Source of the DNA: Candidatus Roseilinea sp.
Lineage (GTDB): Bacteria; Chloroflexota; Anaerolineae; J036; Brachytrichaceae
Assembly (NCBI GenBank): GCA_026003755.1
Contig: BPHV01000002.1
Span: 620,001-684,000, forward strand
Length of the DNA: 64,000 nucleotides
Reading direction: 5' to 3'
The notes beneath the pieces are model-generated. The model was not told the DNA's origin. It searched no databases and saw nothing but the letters and a program-made list of their open reading frames with translations. The translations under genes were made by a program, and so were the position numbers. Shown piece after piece: positions 642 to 7,436 of the stretch; position 1 is the first letter of the stretch; every line of letters begins with the position of its first letter.

Positions 642-2348
642 CTAGCGAAACGCTCGCCGGGCCAGCGTGCTTAGCCCGTCCACGATGACAGTCAGGACAA
701 ACAGCGCGATGAGCGTCGCCAGCACGCCGGCGTAATCGAAGCTGCTCAGTTGCTCGGTCAGCAACCGCCCCAAGCCACCTGCGCCGACGAAGCCGACGAT
801 CACCGTCTCGCGCATCGCGATCTCCCAGCGATAAAAGATATAGGCCAGGGCCTGGGGCAGGGTGATGGGTAAGAGGCCGTAGAGAAAAGCCTGGGCGGGC
901 GGGGCGCCGGCGCTTTTCAGCGCGTGCGAGGGCTGCGCATCGGCGTTCTCCACTGCTTCGGCGATCAGCCGGCCGAGGACGCCCAGATTGTGCACGGCAA
1001 TCGCCAACGCACCGGGCAGCGGGCCGGGGAAGATCACGAACAAGATCAGCAACGCCCACACCGGCGCCGGGATGGCACGGCAGCACAGCAGCACAAAGCG
1101 CGCGAGGCTGTAAACAAGCCAGGCGCCGCGCGTCCGGCGGGCCGGCCGGGCCGCCACGTAGGCCAGCCCCAGGCCAAACGCGCCCGCCACCGCGATGGCA
1201 ACCACCGACATCGCCAGCGTCTGCGCCGACAGGCCCAGCAGCGTCCCCACAACAGCCGGCGAGAGGTCGGGCGGCATCATCTGGTCGAACAAATCGGCGA
1301 GGAGCATGCCCGTGCGCGGCGCAAAGAGCTTGCCAAAATCTGGCCGGATATACCCCACCGACAGCGGCACGAGCAGCGCAGCGACGGCCAGCAAAGCGAG
1401 CAGCGCGCGCGAGGCAGGCGTGGCGCGCGCGCGGGCAGCCGCCGCCGTCGCGCAGTCGGCGGCCATGTCCACCTCCAGCCGTGCAGGCGCGCCGAGCGCA
1501 CGTCGAATACGCGCGCTGAGCCAATCGGTCAGGCCGCTCAGCACGAGCAGCGCCGCCATCAACGTCCACATCTCGGCATAGCGCAACGATTGCAGGCTGA
1601 GCAAAATCTGGTAGCCTAGGCCGCCGGCGCCGATCACCCCCAGCACGGTGGCCGAGCGAATGGCGCACTCCAAACGGTAGAACGCATACGCGAGCAGGTT
1701 GGGCAAGGCGCGCGGCAGCACGCCGTAGAGCATGGCCTGCGCCGGCGTTGCCCCGCTGTTGAGCAGGGCCGCCAAGGCGTCGCGCGGCATCTCGTCTATG
1801 ATCTCTGAGAACACTTTGGCGGTGATCGCCCCAAACGGAATGCCCAACGCCAAGATCGCCACCAGCGGATCGAGGCCGAGGATGCGCACCAGGAACAGGC
1901 CCCAGATCGCCTCGTGAACGGCGCGCGGCACAGCCAACGCGCCGCGCGCGATAAGCCAGGGCGAGCGGAACAGCGCTCGCCCTTTCCAGCCGCGCGCTAT
2001 CCACCACACCTGGGACGAAAGCAGCCCACCCAGGGAGCCAATCCCCAGGCTAAGCGCCAAGCCGCTGATGGCGTAGGCAAAGGTGATCAGGGTGGATTCA
2101 AGGGTCAAGCGCAAAAAGGCCGGGCTGAGCTCAGGCCGCAGCGCAGCGGCAAAGAACTGCCCCACCAGCGCCCACCCGCCGGCGTTGATCAGCTCACCGC
2201 GGAACAGGCCAACGTGAACGGCGGACCAAGCCACAGCGACCAGGGTGACCCACGCCACAGCCCGCCCGCCGCGCAAGAGGCTGCGCCAGGCCGGGCGGGT
2301 CACCATCCTCAGATCGGCCGCGCGTGAGGAACTCAGAGATGTGCGCAT
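642..2348 (-). CDS. phnE: Phosphonate-type ABC transporter permease, two PhnE domains fused
   Basis: This is a 568-residue membrane protein made of two homologous permease halves. Each half has a run of hydrophobic segments and an EAA-type cytoplasmic loop followed by a GAGGLG motif (VIGAGGLGYQ near residue 240, FVGAGGLGRL near residue 520). A usual PhnE is about 260-290 residues, so this is a head-to-tail fusion that could supply both membrane subunits in one chain. The start overlaps the end of the ATPase gene by 16 bp, so the two are probably translationally coupled. Family knowledge supports import of phosphonate, phosphite or related oxyanions. The neighbouring selD suggests selenium oxyanions as an alternative substrate, which is an inference. 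Confidence 0.88.
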   Translation of the reverse strand: MRTSLSSSRAADLRMVTRPAWRSLLRGGRAVAWVTLVAVAWSAVHVGLFRGELINAGGWALVGQFFAAALRPELSPAFLRLTLESTLITFAYAISGLALSLGIGSLGGLLSSQVWWIARGWKGRALFRSPWLIARGALAVPRAVHEAIWGLFLVRILGLDPLVAILALGIPFGAITAKVFSEIIDEMPRDALAALLNSGATPAQAMLYGVLPRALPNLLAYAFYRLECAIRSATVLGVIGAGGLGYQILLSLQSLRYAEMWTLMAALLVLSGLTDWLSARIRRALGAPARLEVDMAADCATAAAARARATPASRALLALLAVAALLVPLSVGYIRPDFGKLFAPRTGMLLADLFDQMMPPDLSPAVVGTLLGLSAQTLAMSVVAIAVAGAFGLGLAYVAARPARRTRGAWLVYSLARFVLLCCRAIPAPVWALLILFVIFPGPLPGALAIAVHNLGVLGRLIAEAVENADAQPSHALKSAGAPPAQAFLYGLLPITLPQALAYIFYRWEIAMRETVIVGFVGAGGLGRLLTEQLSSFDYAGVLATLIALFVLTVIVDGLSTLARRAFR

Positions 2349-3094
2349 GACTCAATGCGATACAGCGCGTCTAGCATGGCCGGCGTGACTTGGCCAACCG
2401 GCAGGTCGAACAGCACCCGCCCTTCGCGCAGCCCCACGATGCGGTCGCAGTGGCTATAGGCGTACTCCAGCGCATGTAGGCTGACGACCAGCGTTTTGTC
2501 GAGCCGGTCGCACAGCTCGCGCAGCAAGGACATGATCTCGCGGCTGCGTTCGGGGTCTATGCTGGAGATCGGCTCGTCGGCCAGGATGGCGACCGGGTCT
2601 TGCACCAGCACGCGGGCGATGGCCACCCGTTGCTGCTGGCCACCGGAGAGGGTATCGGTGCGGGCATACAGTTTGTCGGCAATGCCGACCAACGCCAGCG
2701 CACGCGCGGCCGTCTCACGTTCGAGCGGCGCCACCAGCGAGAACGCCGCTTTGGCCAGCGACCAGCGTCCCAGATGGCCGGCGTTGACGTTGTGGATCAC
2801 GCTGAGGTTGGGCACTAAGTTGAACTGCTGGTACACCGTGCCGATCTGACGCTGAAGCCGGCGCAGCGCGCGCGCCGAAAGGCGCGCCGTATCTTGACCC
2901 AGCAGGCGCACGTCGCCGCTGCTCGGCGCGATCGAACCGTTCAGCACGCCGAGCAGGGTGCTCTTGCCGGCCCCGCTCGGCCCGACCAGCGCCACGCGCT
3001 CGCCGGCCTCGATGCGCAACGAGACGTCCTGCAGCGCCGCCAGCGCGCCGTAGCGCACGGTGACGCCCTTCAGCTCAAAGATCGCCGTGGGCAT
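2333..3094 (-). CDS. phnC: Phosphonate-type ABC transporter ATP-binding protein
   Basis: This 253-residue ABC ATPase has Walker A GPSGAGKST at residues 38-46, a Q-loop at 89-90 (QQFNLVPN), the signature LSGGQQQ at 149-155, Walker B ending ILADEP at 170-175, and an H-loop His in VVSLH. The start at 3094 gives the normal N-terminus (FELKGVTVRYG). The open frame continues upstream but that part has no domain character. It sits between the binding protein and the fused permease in the order D-C-E. It would power uptake through the permease at 642-2348. Confidence 0.9.
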   Translation of the reverse strand: MPTAIFELKGVTVRYGALAALQDVSLRIEAGERVALVGPSGAGKSTLLGVLNGSIAPSSGDVRLLGQDTARLSARALRRLQRQIGTVYQQFNLVPNLSVIHNVNAGHLGRWSLAKAAFSLVAPLERETAARALALVGIADKLYARTDTLSGGQQQRVAIARVLVQDPVAILADEPISSIDPERSREIMSLLRELCDRLDKTLVVSLHALEYAYSHCDRIVGLREGRVLFDLPVGQVTPAMLDALYRIESCAHL

Positions 3095-3191
3095 GGCCGA
3101 GTGTATGCCCGGCGCGCGGGTGGACGTGCGCCGCCGAGCGACAGGCGGGTGACGACATTCGACGAGCGAAGGCAACGCCATCACCGCGCCG

Positions 3192-4109
3192 CTACTTGAT
3201 CTTGCCGATCTGGCGGGCGACGGCCTCGATGTCGGCGTAGTTTTCGTTCTTCGTCTCGATGAACTTCTGCGCGCCGAAGAGGTCGAGGATTTCCTTGTGG
3301 GCGGGGTTGGCAGCATCCAGCGCCAGAAAGGCCTGTTGGACGCGTTGGATGAAGCCTGCGCCGAACTTCTGCTCCACGTCCGGCCGCACCACCCAGTGAT
3401 AGTCGTAGTATGCCGGCGTGCGCCAGAGGACGATGACCTTGTTGGTGTCCACCTCGCCGGCGGCGACGCGGGCGTTCCACACCTGTTCGTTCAGCGCGCC
3501 GGCCTCGTAGGTGCCGGCCTCCACCAGCTTGATCGTCTTGTCGTGCGAGCCGGAGAAGCCCGGTTCGCCTTTCAAGTCGGACAGGGCCACGCCGGCTTTG
3601 CTCATGAAGAACTGCGGCATCAGCCGGCCGGAGGTGGACGACTCGCTGCCGAAGGTGAACGTGCGGCCCTTGAGCGCGGTCAACCCGCTGATGTCGTCGA
3701 ACGGCTGGATGCCGGCCGCGACGTTGGCGATGAACACGCTGCGGAATTTCTCGTCAATATCGCGCTGGATGATGGCTTGCGCGCCATCCACCTGCAGGCG
3801 GGCTTGAACGCCGGTGAGGCCGCCGAACCAGGCCATATCCACATCGCCGGTGCGGAAGGCGTTGACGACGGCCGCGTAATCCGTCACCGGCTTGTAGACC
3901 ACCGATACGCCGAGCTGTTCCTTCAAGTAGTCGGAGACTTTGCCGTAGAGCCGGTTGAGCTTCTCCGGGTCTTGGTCGGGGATGGCCGAGATGACGAACG
4001 TCTGGGGCTGAGCTGCCGGTCGAGCCGCTGGCGGCGGCGCGGCGCAGGCAGCCAGCGCAACCGATGCGCATAGAGCGAGCGCAAAACCGATTTTTGATGG
4101 TCGAAACAT
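3192..4109 (-). CDS. phnD: Phosphonate/selenate-type ABC transporter substrate-binding lipoprotein
   Basis: This 305-residue protein has a lipoprotein signal, with lipobox LAAC near residues 19-22 followed by a Pro/Ala-rich linker. The mature part has the PhnD/PtxB-type fold: the start FVISAIPDQDPEKL, the segment DVDMAWFGG, and an SSTSG stretch that in this family contacts the anion. A strong ribosome site, AAGGAGT, lies five bases before the ATG. It is the first gene of the minus-strand transporter operon and is divergent from selD. NCBI curates a PhnD-like subfamily named putative selenate binding proteins, and the selD neighbour fits that subfamily. Substrate is inferred; phosphonate or phosphite remain possible. 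Confidence 0.87.
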   Translation of the reverse strand: MFRPSKIGFALALCASVALAACAAPPPAARPAAQPQTFVISAIPDQDPEKLNRLYGKVSDYLKEQLGVSVVYKPVTDYAAVVNAFRTGDVDMAWFGGLTGVQARLQVDGAQAIIQRDIDEKFRSVFIANVAAGIQPFDDISGLTALKGRTFTFGSESSTSGRLMPQFFMSKAGVALSDLKGEPGFSGSHDKTIKLVEAGTYEAGALNEQVWNARVAAGEVDTNKVIVLWRTPAYYDYHWVVRPDVEQKFGAGFIQRVQQAFLALDAANPAHKEILDLFGAQKFIETKNENYADIEAVARQIGKIK

Positions 4110-4430
4110 CGTTACTCCTTAGGTTCGCAAGCTTAGGGGTTGTCAACGTGTGTACAAAGCGTCCCTGCGCCAACGCCCCCTTTCGCTTGCGCAGGAGCTA
4201 CGATGTGTTCGAGTGTGCTGCGGCAAGGCTGGAGGCAGCGATGGCGACGGAGCCGAATGAGCGGCGCAACACGCGCGCCGGAGAGCGACGGGTTCAGCGA
4301 TATCGCGTCAAGTTCAACGGCATCACCGCACCTCCTTCGGATTGATTTTCCTCGCCAAGCGCTCCTAATGATAACGCAGGAGCGGCGCTTCATGTGCGTC
4401 CGACGGTCGCCCATCGGGTAAGATAGTGGC
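4110..4430. other. Divergent intergenic region between phnD-like gene and selD
   Basis: This 321-base region separates the minus-strand transporter operon from selD. No reading frame here has convincing protein character. A TTGACA hexamer on the minus strand (complement of 4141-4146) lies just upstream of the phnD ribosome site, but no good -10 follows at the right distance. The only clear plus-strand element is the -10-like hexamer immediately before selD. Confidence 0.4.
4419..4424 (+). promoter_or_regulatory. -10-like TAAGAT six bases before the selD start (leaderless type)
   Basis: TAAGAT is followed by six bases and then the GTG at 4431. No Shine-Dalgarno sequence precedes the GTG. This matches the TANNNT-N6-8-start pattern seen at eleven other genes in the window and predicts an mRNA that begins at or very near the start codon. 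Confidence 0.5.
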
Positions 4431-5492
4431 GTGACGATTGCCCGAAAGATCAAGCTGACGTCGCTCGCGTCGTGCGCAGGTTGAGCCGGCAAGCTGAGTG
4501 CTGAGACGCTGGGCGCCGTGTTGCGTCCGCTTCAGAGTCGCTTCCGGCCCGAGGACTATCCCGACCTGCTGATCGGCCTGGGTCAACCGGACGATGCCGC
4601 GGTGTATCGCCTGTCGGATCAGCACGCCATCGTCCAGACGGTGGACTTCTTCACGCCGGTGGTGGACGATCCGTATGCCTACGGCGCCATTGCCGCGGCC
4701 AACGCGATGAGCGACGTGTACGCTATGGGCGGCGAGGTGCTCTTTGCGCTCAACATCGCCGCCTTGCCGGACGACTTGCCCGGCGAGGTGGTGAGCGAGA
4801 TCTTGCGCGGCGGGGCGGATAAGGTGGCCGAGGCGGGCGCGGTCATCGCCGGCGGCCACACCGTCAAGGACAAGGAGCCGAAATACGGCTTGTGCGTTAC
4901 GGGCTTGGTGAATCCGGCGGAGGTGATGGCCAAGGGCGGCGCGAAGCCGGGCGACCTCCTCGTGTTGACGAAGCCACTGGGCGTCGGCGTGGTGACTACG
5001 GCGATCAAGCGGGACCTAGCCCAACCCGAGCACGTGGACCTGGCGATTGCCAGCATGTCGCGCCTGAACCGTGACGCTGCGCGCGCCGCGCGCGACTTGG
5101 GCGCGCGCGGCGGCACCGACATCACCGGTTTTGGCTTGATCGGTCATGCGTGGGAGATGGCCCACGCTGCCGGCGTGCGCTTTCGCTTCTGGTGGGAGGC
5201 GCTGCCGTTCCTCCCCGGCGCGCTTGCGCACGGCCAGGACTGGGTGTTCCCCGGCGGCGCAGCGACCAACGAGGCCACCTATCAGCGTCATGTGCAGTTC
5301 GACCCGGCGCTGGAGCCTTGGCAGCGCATGATGCTCTTCGACCCGCAGACCAGCGGCGGCTTGCTCATCGCCATCGCCGCTTCGCGGGCCGACGCCTTGG
5401 CCAACGCGCTGAAGGCCGGCGGCGACTCGGCGTTCATCATTGGCGAAGTCGTCGAGGGCAGCGGTATCGTCGTGACGCACCAAGCGCCATGA
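4431..5492 (+). CDS. selD: Selenophosphate synthetase SelD with an in-frame TGA (selenocysteine) at the catalytic position
   Basis: The enzyme makes selenophosphate from selenide and ATP, the selenium donor for selenocysteine tRNA and selenouridine. Read through the TGA at 4482-4484, the protein has 353 residues and a standard SelD N-terminus: KLTSLASCAG, then Sec18, then AGKLSAETL. This reproduces the family spacing in which the catalytic Cys/Sec is followed three residues later by the essential Lys (here Lys21). Downstream lie the AIRS-type motifs: DDAAVY, VDFF, the glycine-rich AGGHTVKDKEP and DPQTSGGLL. If only the part after the TGA is called (GTG at 4518), the catalytic residue and Lys are lost. 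The stop overlaps the next gene's ATG. Start choice: the GTG at 4431 is the first start after the upstream stop at 4419-4421. Confidence 0.93.
4482..4484 (+). other. Recoded UGA codon, selenocysteine 18 of SelD
   Basis: TGA falls exactly where SelD carries its catalytic Cys or Sec. Homology to SelD continues in the same frame on both sides. No frame change or other lesion is needed to join the two parts. Confidence 0.9.
4488..4517 (+). other. Candidate bacterial SECIS hairpin just after the SelD UGA
   Basis: The RNA can fold as follows: 4488-4490 with 4515-4517, a two-A bulge, 4493-4495 with 4512-4514 (one wobble), a G-G mismatch, and 4497-4500 with 4507-4510 (one wobble), closing a six-base loop at 4501-4506. 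The loop begins 17 bases after the UGA, inside the range known for bacterial SECIS elements. The fold was found by eye and the loop does not match the classical GGUC-type loop closely. Confidence 0.4.
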
Positions 5493-5794
5493 GTGAAGTG
5501 ATGACCGTCAAGTGCGCTTGGCGCTCGCTGTCGGGCGCGCGCATCCATGCGACGTTCGACGCCGAAGTGATTGCCTACGACGAGCGGCAAGATCGCTGGC
5601 TGGTGAAGCTGACCGGCGTGCGCTCCACCGACGCGCCGGCCGAGGCGCGCGCGCTGGTTGAAGCGCAAGCCGGCAAGTGGGCCTATGTGCCCAGCGAAGC
5701 GCGCCGGTTGGGGCTGACGCTGCCGCTGAAATATGAGACACTTACCGGCAGGATTCGATTCTTCTACGCAGCCGACCCGCGTGAACGGAGGTGA
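5489..5794 (+). CDS. Hypothetical 101-residue protein translationally coupled to selD
   Basis: The ATG overlaps the selD stop codon (ATGA), so the two are probably co-translated. The protein is small and soluble, with two beta-rich stretches (CAWRSLSGARIHATFD and DRWLVKLTGV) and a charged C-terminus. It has no signal peptide or membrane segment and I do not recognise the family. Its end merges with the ribosome site of the next gene (GGAGGTGA), so it sits in one unit with selD and rocA. A selenium-related role is only positional inference. Confidence 0.65.
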   Translation: MSEVMTVKCAWRSLSGARIHATFDAEVIAYDERQDRWLVKLTGVRSTDAPAEARALVEAQAGKWAYVPSEARRLGLTLPLKYETLTGRIRFFYAADPRERR

Positions 5795-5798
5795 AGGG

Positions 5799-7436
5799 AT
5801 GCCAACGGCAAAAGCTAAAGCCAAGCGCACGACACCGCGCAAGCGCAAGCAGTCCGGCAAGCCGGCGTTTCAAATCACCTACGCCAACCTAAGCAGCGCG
5901 CTGACCGATCCGGCGATGCTGGCGCGCTTCGACAAGGCGTTCGCCCAGGTGCGCGCCAACATCGGCGAACATGCGCGCACCTATCCGATGTTCATCGGCG
6001 GCGTCGAGCGCTTCGCCGCCGTGCAGTTCGCCAAAACCACGCCGATTGATACCAGCCTGACCCTCGGCTACTTCCAGAGGGGGGATGCGCAGGACGCCCG
6101 CGACGCCATCGCAGCGGCCAAGGCGGCCTTCCCAGCTTGGAGCGGCACGCCGTGGAAGCGCCGCGTGGCGATGATGCGCAAAGTCGCCGCGCTGATCAAC
6201 CGTCGGCTGTTCGACATCGCCGCCTGGGTCAGCCTTGAGGTGGGCAAGAGCCGCGCCGAAGCCATCGGCGACGTGAAGGAAACCGCCGACCTGATTGATT
6301 ACTACTGCAACCAGATGGAGGCCAACGCCGGCTTCGAGAAGCCGCTGTTGCCGGAGGGCGGCGCGGGCGTGTCGCGCAGCGTGCTCAAGCCCTACGGCGT
6401 GTGGGCCGTGGTCTCGCCGTTCAACTTTCCGATGGCGCTGACGGGCGGACCGGCCGGCGCGGCGCTCATCGCCGGCAACACCGTGGTGATCAAGCCGGCC
6501 AGCGATACGCCCATGGCGAGCTGGCTGCTGACCGAGTGCCTGCGCGACGCCGGCCTGCCGGCGGGCGTCTTCAACTACGTCACCGGCCCCGGCAGCGTGG
6601 TAGGCGAGGAGCTGGTCAACAATCCCGACGTCGCCGGCATGACGTTCACCGGCTCGTTCGACGTCGGTTTCAGCCTGATCCAGCGCTTCAGCCGGCACAT
6701 GCCGCGCCCGCTGATCGCCGAGATGGGTGGCAAGAACGCCGTGATCGTGAGCGACAAGGCCGATTTGGAGAAGGCCGCCGAGGGCGTGGTGCGCGCTGCG
6801 TTCGGCCTGAGCGGGCAAAAGTGCAGCGCGACCAGCCGCGTATACGTGCATCGCGCGGTGAAGGAGCCTTTTGTGGACTTGCTGAGGCGCAAGACCGAAG
6901 CGCTGAAGGTGGGCGACCCGACGCAGGCCGGCGTGTTCACCGGGCCGGTGTGCAACCGCGGCGGCTACCAGACCTTCCAGCGCGCCGTCGAGCAAGCGCA
7001 GCGCGACGGCGGCGTCTTCGTCACCGGCGGCCATGTGCTCACCGAGGGCGACTTGGCCAGGGGCTTCTTCTGCGCGCTCACCATCGTGGACGGCTTGCCG
7101 CTCGATCATCCGCTGTTCTGCGAGGAGCTGTTTACGCCGTTCCTGTTGGTGGCGGCTGTGGATTCGCTGGAGCAAGCGATGGCCGAGGCGAACAAAGTCC
7201 AATACGGCCTGACGGCGGGGTTCTTCAGCAAAGATCGCCAGGAGGTCAAATACTTCCTCGACCACATCCAGGCCGGCACGGTGTATGTGAACCGCGAGCG
7301 CGGCGCGACCACCGGCGCATGGCCGGGCAACCAAAGCTTCGGTGGGTGGAAGGCCAGCGGCAACACCGGGCGCGGCGCCGGCGGGCCGTATTACCTGCAG
7401 CAATACATGCGCGAGCAGAGTCAGACGGTGTTCTAG
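5799..7436 (+). CDS. rocA: L-glutamate gamma-semialdehyde (delta-1-pyrroline-5-carboxylate) dehydrogenase
   Basis: This 545-residue aldehyde dehydrogenase oxidises P5C/glutamate semialdehyde to glutamate with NAD+, the second step of proline catabolism. Visible family features are VSPFNFP in the Rossmann region, the general-base Glu in AEMGGKNA, the catalytic Cys in GQKCSAT, and the C-terminal NRERGATTGAW and QSFGGWKASG typical of P5CDH. A very strong ribosome site GGAGGTGA lies four bases before the ATG at 5799, so the longer open frame upstream is not used. The N-terminus is Lys/Arg-rich for about 20 residues. No proline dehydrogenase gene is adjacent. Confidence 0.92.
   Translation: MPTAKAKAKRTTPRKRKQSGKPAFQITYANLSSALTDPAMLARFDKAFAQVRANIGEHARTYPMFIGGVERFAAVQFAKTTPIDTSLTLGYFQRGDAQDARDAIAAAKAAFPAWSGTPWKRRVAMMRKVAALINRRLFDIAAWVSLEVGKSRAEAIGDVKETADLIDYYCNQMEANAGFEKPLLPEGGAGVSRSVLKPYGVWAVVSPFNFPMALTGGPAGAALIAGNTVVIKPASDTPMASWLLTECLRDAGLPAGVFNYVTGPGSVVGEELVNNPDVAGMTFTGSFDVGFSLIQRFSRHMPRPLIAEMGGKNAVIVSDKADLEKAAEGVVRAAFGLSGQKCSATSRVYVHRAVKEPFVDLLRRKTEALKVGDPTQAGVFTGPVCNRGGYQTFQRAVEQAQRDGGVFVTGGHVLTEGDLARGFFCALTIVDGLPLDHPLFCEELFTPFLLVAAVDSLEQAMAEANKVQYGLTAGFFSKDRQEVKYFLDHIQAGTVYVNRERGATTGAWPGNQSFGGWKASGNTGRGAGGPYYLQQYMREQSQTVF

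Follow-up and report, generated by a model that had tools for sequence, protein, structure and literature searches.

A UGA codon at the catalytic position of selD almost certainly encodes selenocysteine in a Candidatus Roseilinea-like bacterium

Does the in-frame TGA near the start of selD in a Candidatus Roseilinea-like bacterium end a reading frame, or does it encode the catalytic selenocysteine (Sec) of selenophosphate synthetase? The gene (selD, selenide water dikinase) lies at 4431–5492 on the forward strand of the window, the 64,000-nucleotide stretch analyzed here, which belongs to a 3.34-Mb assembly (G000) from the class Anaerolineae. Read through, it runs from a GTG start to a TGA stop at 5490–5492 and encodes 353 residues; the single internal TGA (4482–4484) is codon 18, counted from GTG 4431. 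This start is preceded by an in-frame TAA at 4419–4421 and coincides with ATG or GTG codons at the same place in relatives. Open reading frame calling with translation table 11 starts at GTG 4518 and returns a 324-residue product that, as the original prediction had stated, lacks the catalytic residues.

The claim that SelD homology lies on both sides of the TGA was borne out by profile search and alignment. The frame reads VTIARKIKLTSLASCAG-U-AGKLSAETL..., and the homology continues unbroken from there to the end. The NCBIfam equivalog model for selD (TIGR00476) matches at 369.7 bits (cut-off 125) over profile positions 1–310 of 311, indicating a full-length protein, and both Pfam AIRS domains are present. 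Alignment with Escherichia coli SelD (3u0o; full-length homology, E = 2.2e-71) places U18 opposite the catalytic Cys17 and Lys21 (codon 4491–4493, three residues past Sec) opposite Lys20, the two positions at which a member of the family is expected to carry Cys or Sec and Lys, respectively. The SelD of Aquifex aeolicus (2yye, 2zod) is also homologous over its full length (E = 3.8e-62). The E. coli chain differs in having Cys at the catalytic position; its motif is GAG-C-GCK where the window has CAG-U-AGK, with Gly in place of Cys19, and SelDs of the organism's own family have a Cys three residues ahead of Sec. This gene is the only SelD match in the host genome, and by analogy with known families its product would make selenophosphate from selenide and ATP.

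The surroundings of selD are partly conserved. A 101-residue frame (5489–5794, forward strand) begins with an ATG (5489–5491) that overlaps the selD stop (ATGA); it is 66–93% conserved beside selD across the genus and had no match in Pfam or NCBIfam. An aldehyde dehydrogenase-like gene, recognized by eye (5733–7436, forward strand), is 79–97% identical across the genus, where it is syntenic with selD. Genes for a PhnD/PhnC/PhnE-like ABC transporter (642–4109, reverse strand) are divergent from selD, and a PhnD-like gene adjoins selD in several genus members.

The table 11 call is what would be expected if the TGA truly terminated the frame or came from a sequencing error, leaving selD a pseudogene or a 324-residue protein from GTG 4518 without its catalytic loop. 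However, the same TGA recurs in independent assemblies of the same genus (76–94% protein identity), the family, and many other Anaerolineae, flanked on either side by conserved amino acids, which excludes a sequencing error or chance. The N-terminal stretch KLTSLASCAG is conserved in relatives with silent nucleotide changes, and GTG 4518 lies inside the loop of a predicted SECIS element (described below). The closest relatives that bear a name are assemblies of Candidatus Roseilinea and other Anaerolineae. Of 298 class genomes sampled, 252 gave a SelD match, and among the matches listed nearly all class SelDs have one TGA. Every readable SelD of the genus and family has the Sec codon; TGC or TGT, which in reads at 4482–4484 had been named as one observation that would count against the prediction, occurs in none. 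Across 117 loci in which the catalytic codon was read, 111 have Sec and six Cys. The ratio is not a frequency estimate: the two collections overlap in some genomes, and five of these Cys loci were picked deliberately, as showing no TGA or a TAG. The TGA at the catalytic codon is conserved through the genus, the family, and most of the class, and selD has the conserved in-frame UGA at a Cys/Sec position by which selenoprotein genes are recognized. The reading as a stop or an error appears in large part refuted by this conservation and, since the Sec machinery is also present in the genome, is extremely improbable.

That machinery, which the original prediction had expected elsewhere in the genome and whose absence (of tRNA-Sec or selB) would have told against it, is complete in the same assembly. 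It comprises tRNA-Sec (C1:749057–749149; 73.1 bits against a gathering score of 47), which ARAGORN calls as tRNA-SeC with anticodon tca (UCA); selA (C2:74497–75834; 515 bits), with its N-terminal domain present; and selB (C2:534675–536603; 322 bits), with GTPase, beta-barrel, and winged-helix domains 2 and 3. These are the three components required for a bacterial selenoprotein gene. The winged helices of SelB bind SECIS elements. These genes are scattered over the genome, which is not unusual. Given full decoding machinery in the genome, the UGA at codon 18 is almost certainly read as Sec.

An in-frame UGA could also reflect general reassignment of the codon throughout the lineage, to Trp or Gly for instance and without involvement of Sec, but this would explain the UGA and nothing beyond it. 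Of 69 coding-like window frames, 28 end in UGA; in four further regions of the host genome it is the most frequent terminator, and it is selD's own stop, so it is recoded in context rather than globally reassigned. That the UGA occupies a Cys/Sec position and that tRNA-Sec is present also argue against general reassignment, the probability of which is vanishingly small.

The distribution of these genes within the family bears on whether the UGA is decoded by a dedicated system. Sixteen of the 21 family genomes sampled have selD; all 16 have selB, 14 have selA, and 15 have tRNA-Sec, so that each has at least two of the three, and the cases of missing selA or tRNA-Sec are assemblies of many contigs. 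The five genomes without selD (G003, G073, G138, G284, and G228) lack selA, selB, and tRNA-Sec altogether. Such an all-or-none distribution links selD to Sec decoding within the family. Readthrough of UGA at a low level is general in bacteria, and a near-cognate tRNA (Trp or Cys) might on this account pass the codon, leaving residue 18 as something other than Sec under most conditions; the exact co-loss of selA, selB, and tRNA-Sec with selD and the conserved SECIS speak against this, and we consider it highly improbable.

A candidate bacterial SECIS (bSECIS) hairpin is predicted at 4511–4528 on the forward strand, which narrows the 4484–4530 region originally proposed for such an element. Its stem pairs GGGCGC (4511–4516) with GCGTCC (4523–4528), all six pairs being formed, around a loop CGTGTT (4517–4522) that begins 32 nt past the UGA; the hairpin has an energy of −10.1 kcal/mol alone and −11.9 kcal/mol with flanks and is present in the minimum free energy (MFE) fold of 4485–4535. 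A published bSECIS model specifies a loop of 3–9 nt with a G in its first two positions, a stem of 4–16 bp, a loop 16–37 nt after the UGA, and an MFE of at most −7.5 kcal/mol (PMC13188914); the window hairpin agrees with it on each of these points. From what is known of these families, SelB would be expected to bind this hairpin.

Evidence that the hairpin is conserved comes from relatives, in which (with the U of UGA numbered as base 0) it recurs class-wide with its loop at base 35. Among 93 non-redundant Sec-SelDs, 84% form every one of the six stem pairs (with loops of 5 or 6 nt), against 6% in a null that redraws codons synonymously according to the usage of the gene itself, and none of 200 null sets reached the observed mean. 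The 15 family sequences gave 60% against 10%, again with no null set out of 200 reaching the observed value, and a null left free to pick its best position and loop length reached at most 0.14, against 0.75 observed. The column pair 30/44 is G-C in 42 of the 93, A-U in 23, and G-U in 14, with no A-C, A-G, or A-A, counts that are inflated by shared ancestry. The commonest class hairpin loops contain GGU; the loop is CGUGUU in the window genus, in contrast to GGU(N)C, which is common elsewhere in the Anaerolineae. When only the genus is considered, the hairpin energy was not significant (127 of 200 null sets fold equally well), and five of eight genus sequences form five of the six pairs, with energies of about −5.6 to −6.3 kcal/mol that fall short of the −7.5 kcal/mol in the published model. 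RNAalifold found no consensus structure for all 93 rows together, because the pairing register differs by one base from group to group; dinucleotide shuffles of 47–130 nt around the TGA revealed no significant folding excess, and an Rfam search near the TGA gave no real match. The signal is visible solely at the hairpin position and against the synonymous-codon null.

Among the six Cys-SelDs, the SECIS stem is lost in five and kept in one, Armatimonadetes bacterium AS09scLD_344 (L046), in which the catalytic codon is TGT and a SECIS-like hairpin with loop CGUGC is intact. This suggests a recent change from Sec to Cys; fossil SECIS elements have been described earlier (PMC1794560). Sec encoded by UAG was considered for three class SelDs (G270, G107, and G242) and rejected, the TAGs being terminal stops and the proteins having Cys.

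SelD is not the only Sec protein predicted from this genome; a SelL-related peroxiredoxin is a second. A search of the genome for AhpC/TSA proteins gave 11 matches, one of which has an internal TGA and is missed by standard ORF calling (G000:C1:1298437–1299027; L155 1465–2058 and L159). It encodes 197 residues with U51 in an FGUxxC motif, and the NCBIfam model for SelL-related redox proteins (NF040769) matches at 152.8 bits (cut-off 120), which places it in that subfamily. SelL has the motif UxxU, whereas the peroxiredoxin of this genus has UxxC, sharing the U at the first position with SelL-related redox selenoproteins of the AhpC/TSA type. The TGA is kept in the eight other genomes of the genus and three of genus g5; a relative of another genus (G208) has Cys at the U position. 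Downstream pairing is again conserved: the hairpin reads UUGGCCA-GGU-UGGCCAA, and two family members have UUAGCUA-GGU-UAGCUAA instead, with two pairs changed in compensation and the protein unaltered. The mean energy of the hairpin is better than that of all 300 synonymous null sets. A UGA-containing peroxiredoxin in G228, one of the genomes without Sec genes, was rejected as a candidate. It lies on contig C26 (L163, 2.8 kb), which is 99.7% identical over 2764 bases to G041; G041 is Roseilinea-like and G228 is of another genus, so the contig is most likely misbinned.

Other uses of selenium were sought in the genome. A search for formate dehydrogenase (FdhA) recovered a NuoG-like protein only, one for SelW (PF10262) recovered none, and one for selenouridine synthase gave nothing over the cut-off, its sole return being a rhodanese-like fragment at 20 bits. 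Sec is thereby left as the chief known use of selenophosphate. The selenouridine synthase result agrees with reports that the selenouridine trait is absent in Chloroflexi (PMC1794560; PMC5322559).

The in-frame UGA, full machinery, covarying hairpin, co-loss, and second predicted selenoprotein can all be read from sequence, and we are very confident that the selD product, a selenophosphate synthetase, is a selenoprotein in its own right, its Sec at codon 18 being directed by SelB and the hairpin; from known families, Sec insertion at this codon is almost certain. SelB would bring Sec-tRNA-Sec to the ribosome and bind the hairpin at 4511–4528, so that Sec is inserted at the codon-18 UGA and termination avoided. 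Sec18 and Lys21 would then lie in a mobile N-terminal selenium-binding loop at which selenide and ATP yield selenophosphate, which SelA would use to turn Ser-tRNA-Sec into Sec-tRNA-Sec; Sec would also be inserted into at least one other protein, the SelL-related peroxiredoxin. Because the single selD of the genome is Sec-dependent, new SelD would require prior Sec synthesis, a closed loop. The sole SelD being both maker and consumer of Sec, this anatomy allows a more speculative reading, that the Sec system is kept mainly as a self-sustaining selenium switch with two stable states; full-length SelD would then be made only where selenophosphate already exists. Such a reading presumes a very small selenoproteome (one SelL-like peroxiredoxin beside SelD in a partial search), and we think it very unlikely.

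Comparison with Sec-SelDs of other bacteria (SelD/SPS2, TIGR00476) reveals no difference of substance. Shared features are Sec in place of Cys17, a Lys three residues later, the AIRS and AIRS_C domains, an in-frame UGA with a downstream bSECIS, and co-occurrence with selA, selB, and tRNA-Sec. By 2006 FdhA and SelD ranked as the two commonest selenoproteins, and three selenoprotein families were on record for Chloroflexi (PMC1794560); SelD is described as second most widespread among prokaryotic selenoprotein families (PMC13188914), in keeping with the original statement that Sec-SelD is known elsewhere. No literature on selenium in Roseilinea was found. The special interest that had been attached to its presence in this lineage did not hold up, Sec at this position being the rule in the class; given this class-wide conservation, the Roseilinea Sec-SelD is not a new kind but a known arrangement, and the prediction is correct but ordinary.

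The analysis settles the Roseilinea-like genus as a genuine user of Sec and corrects its annotation, in which the catalytic residue of SelD would otherwise be dropped and the second selenoprotein split or truncated. It also offers a clear example of the Sec trait being lost all-or-none inside one bacterial family, and the class-wide selD SECIS hairpin could help to find further selenoprotein genes in Anaerolineae.
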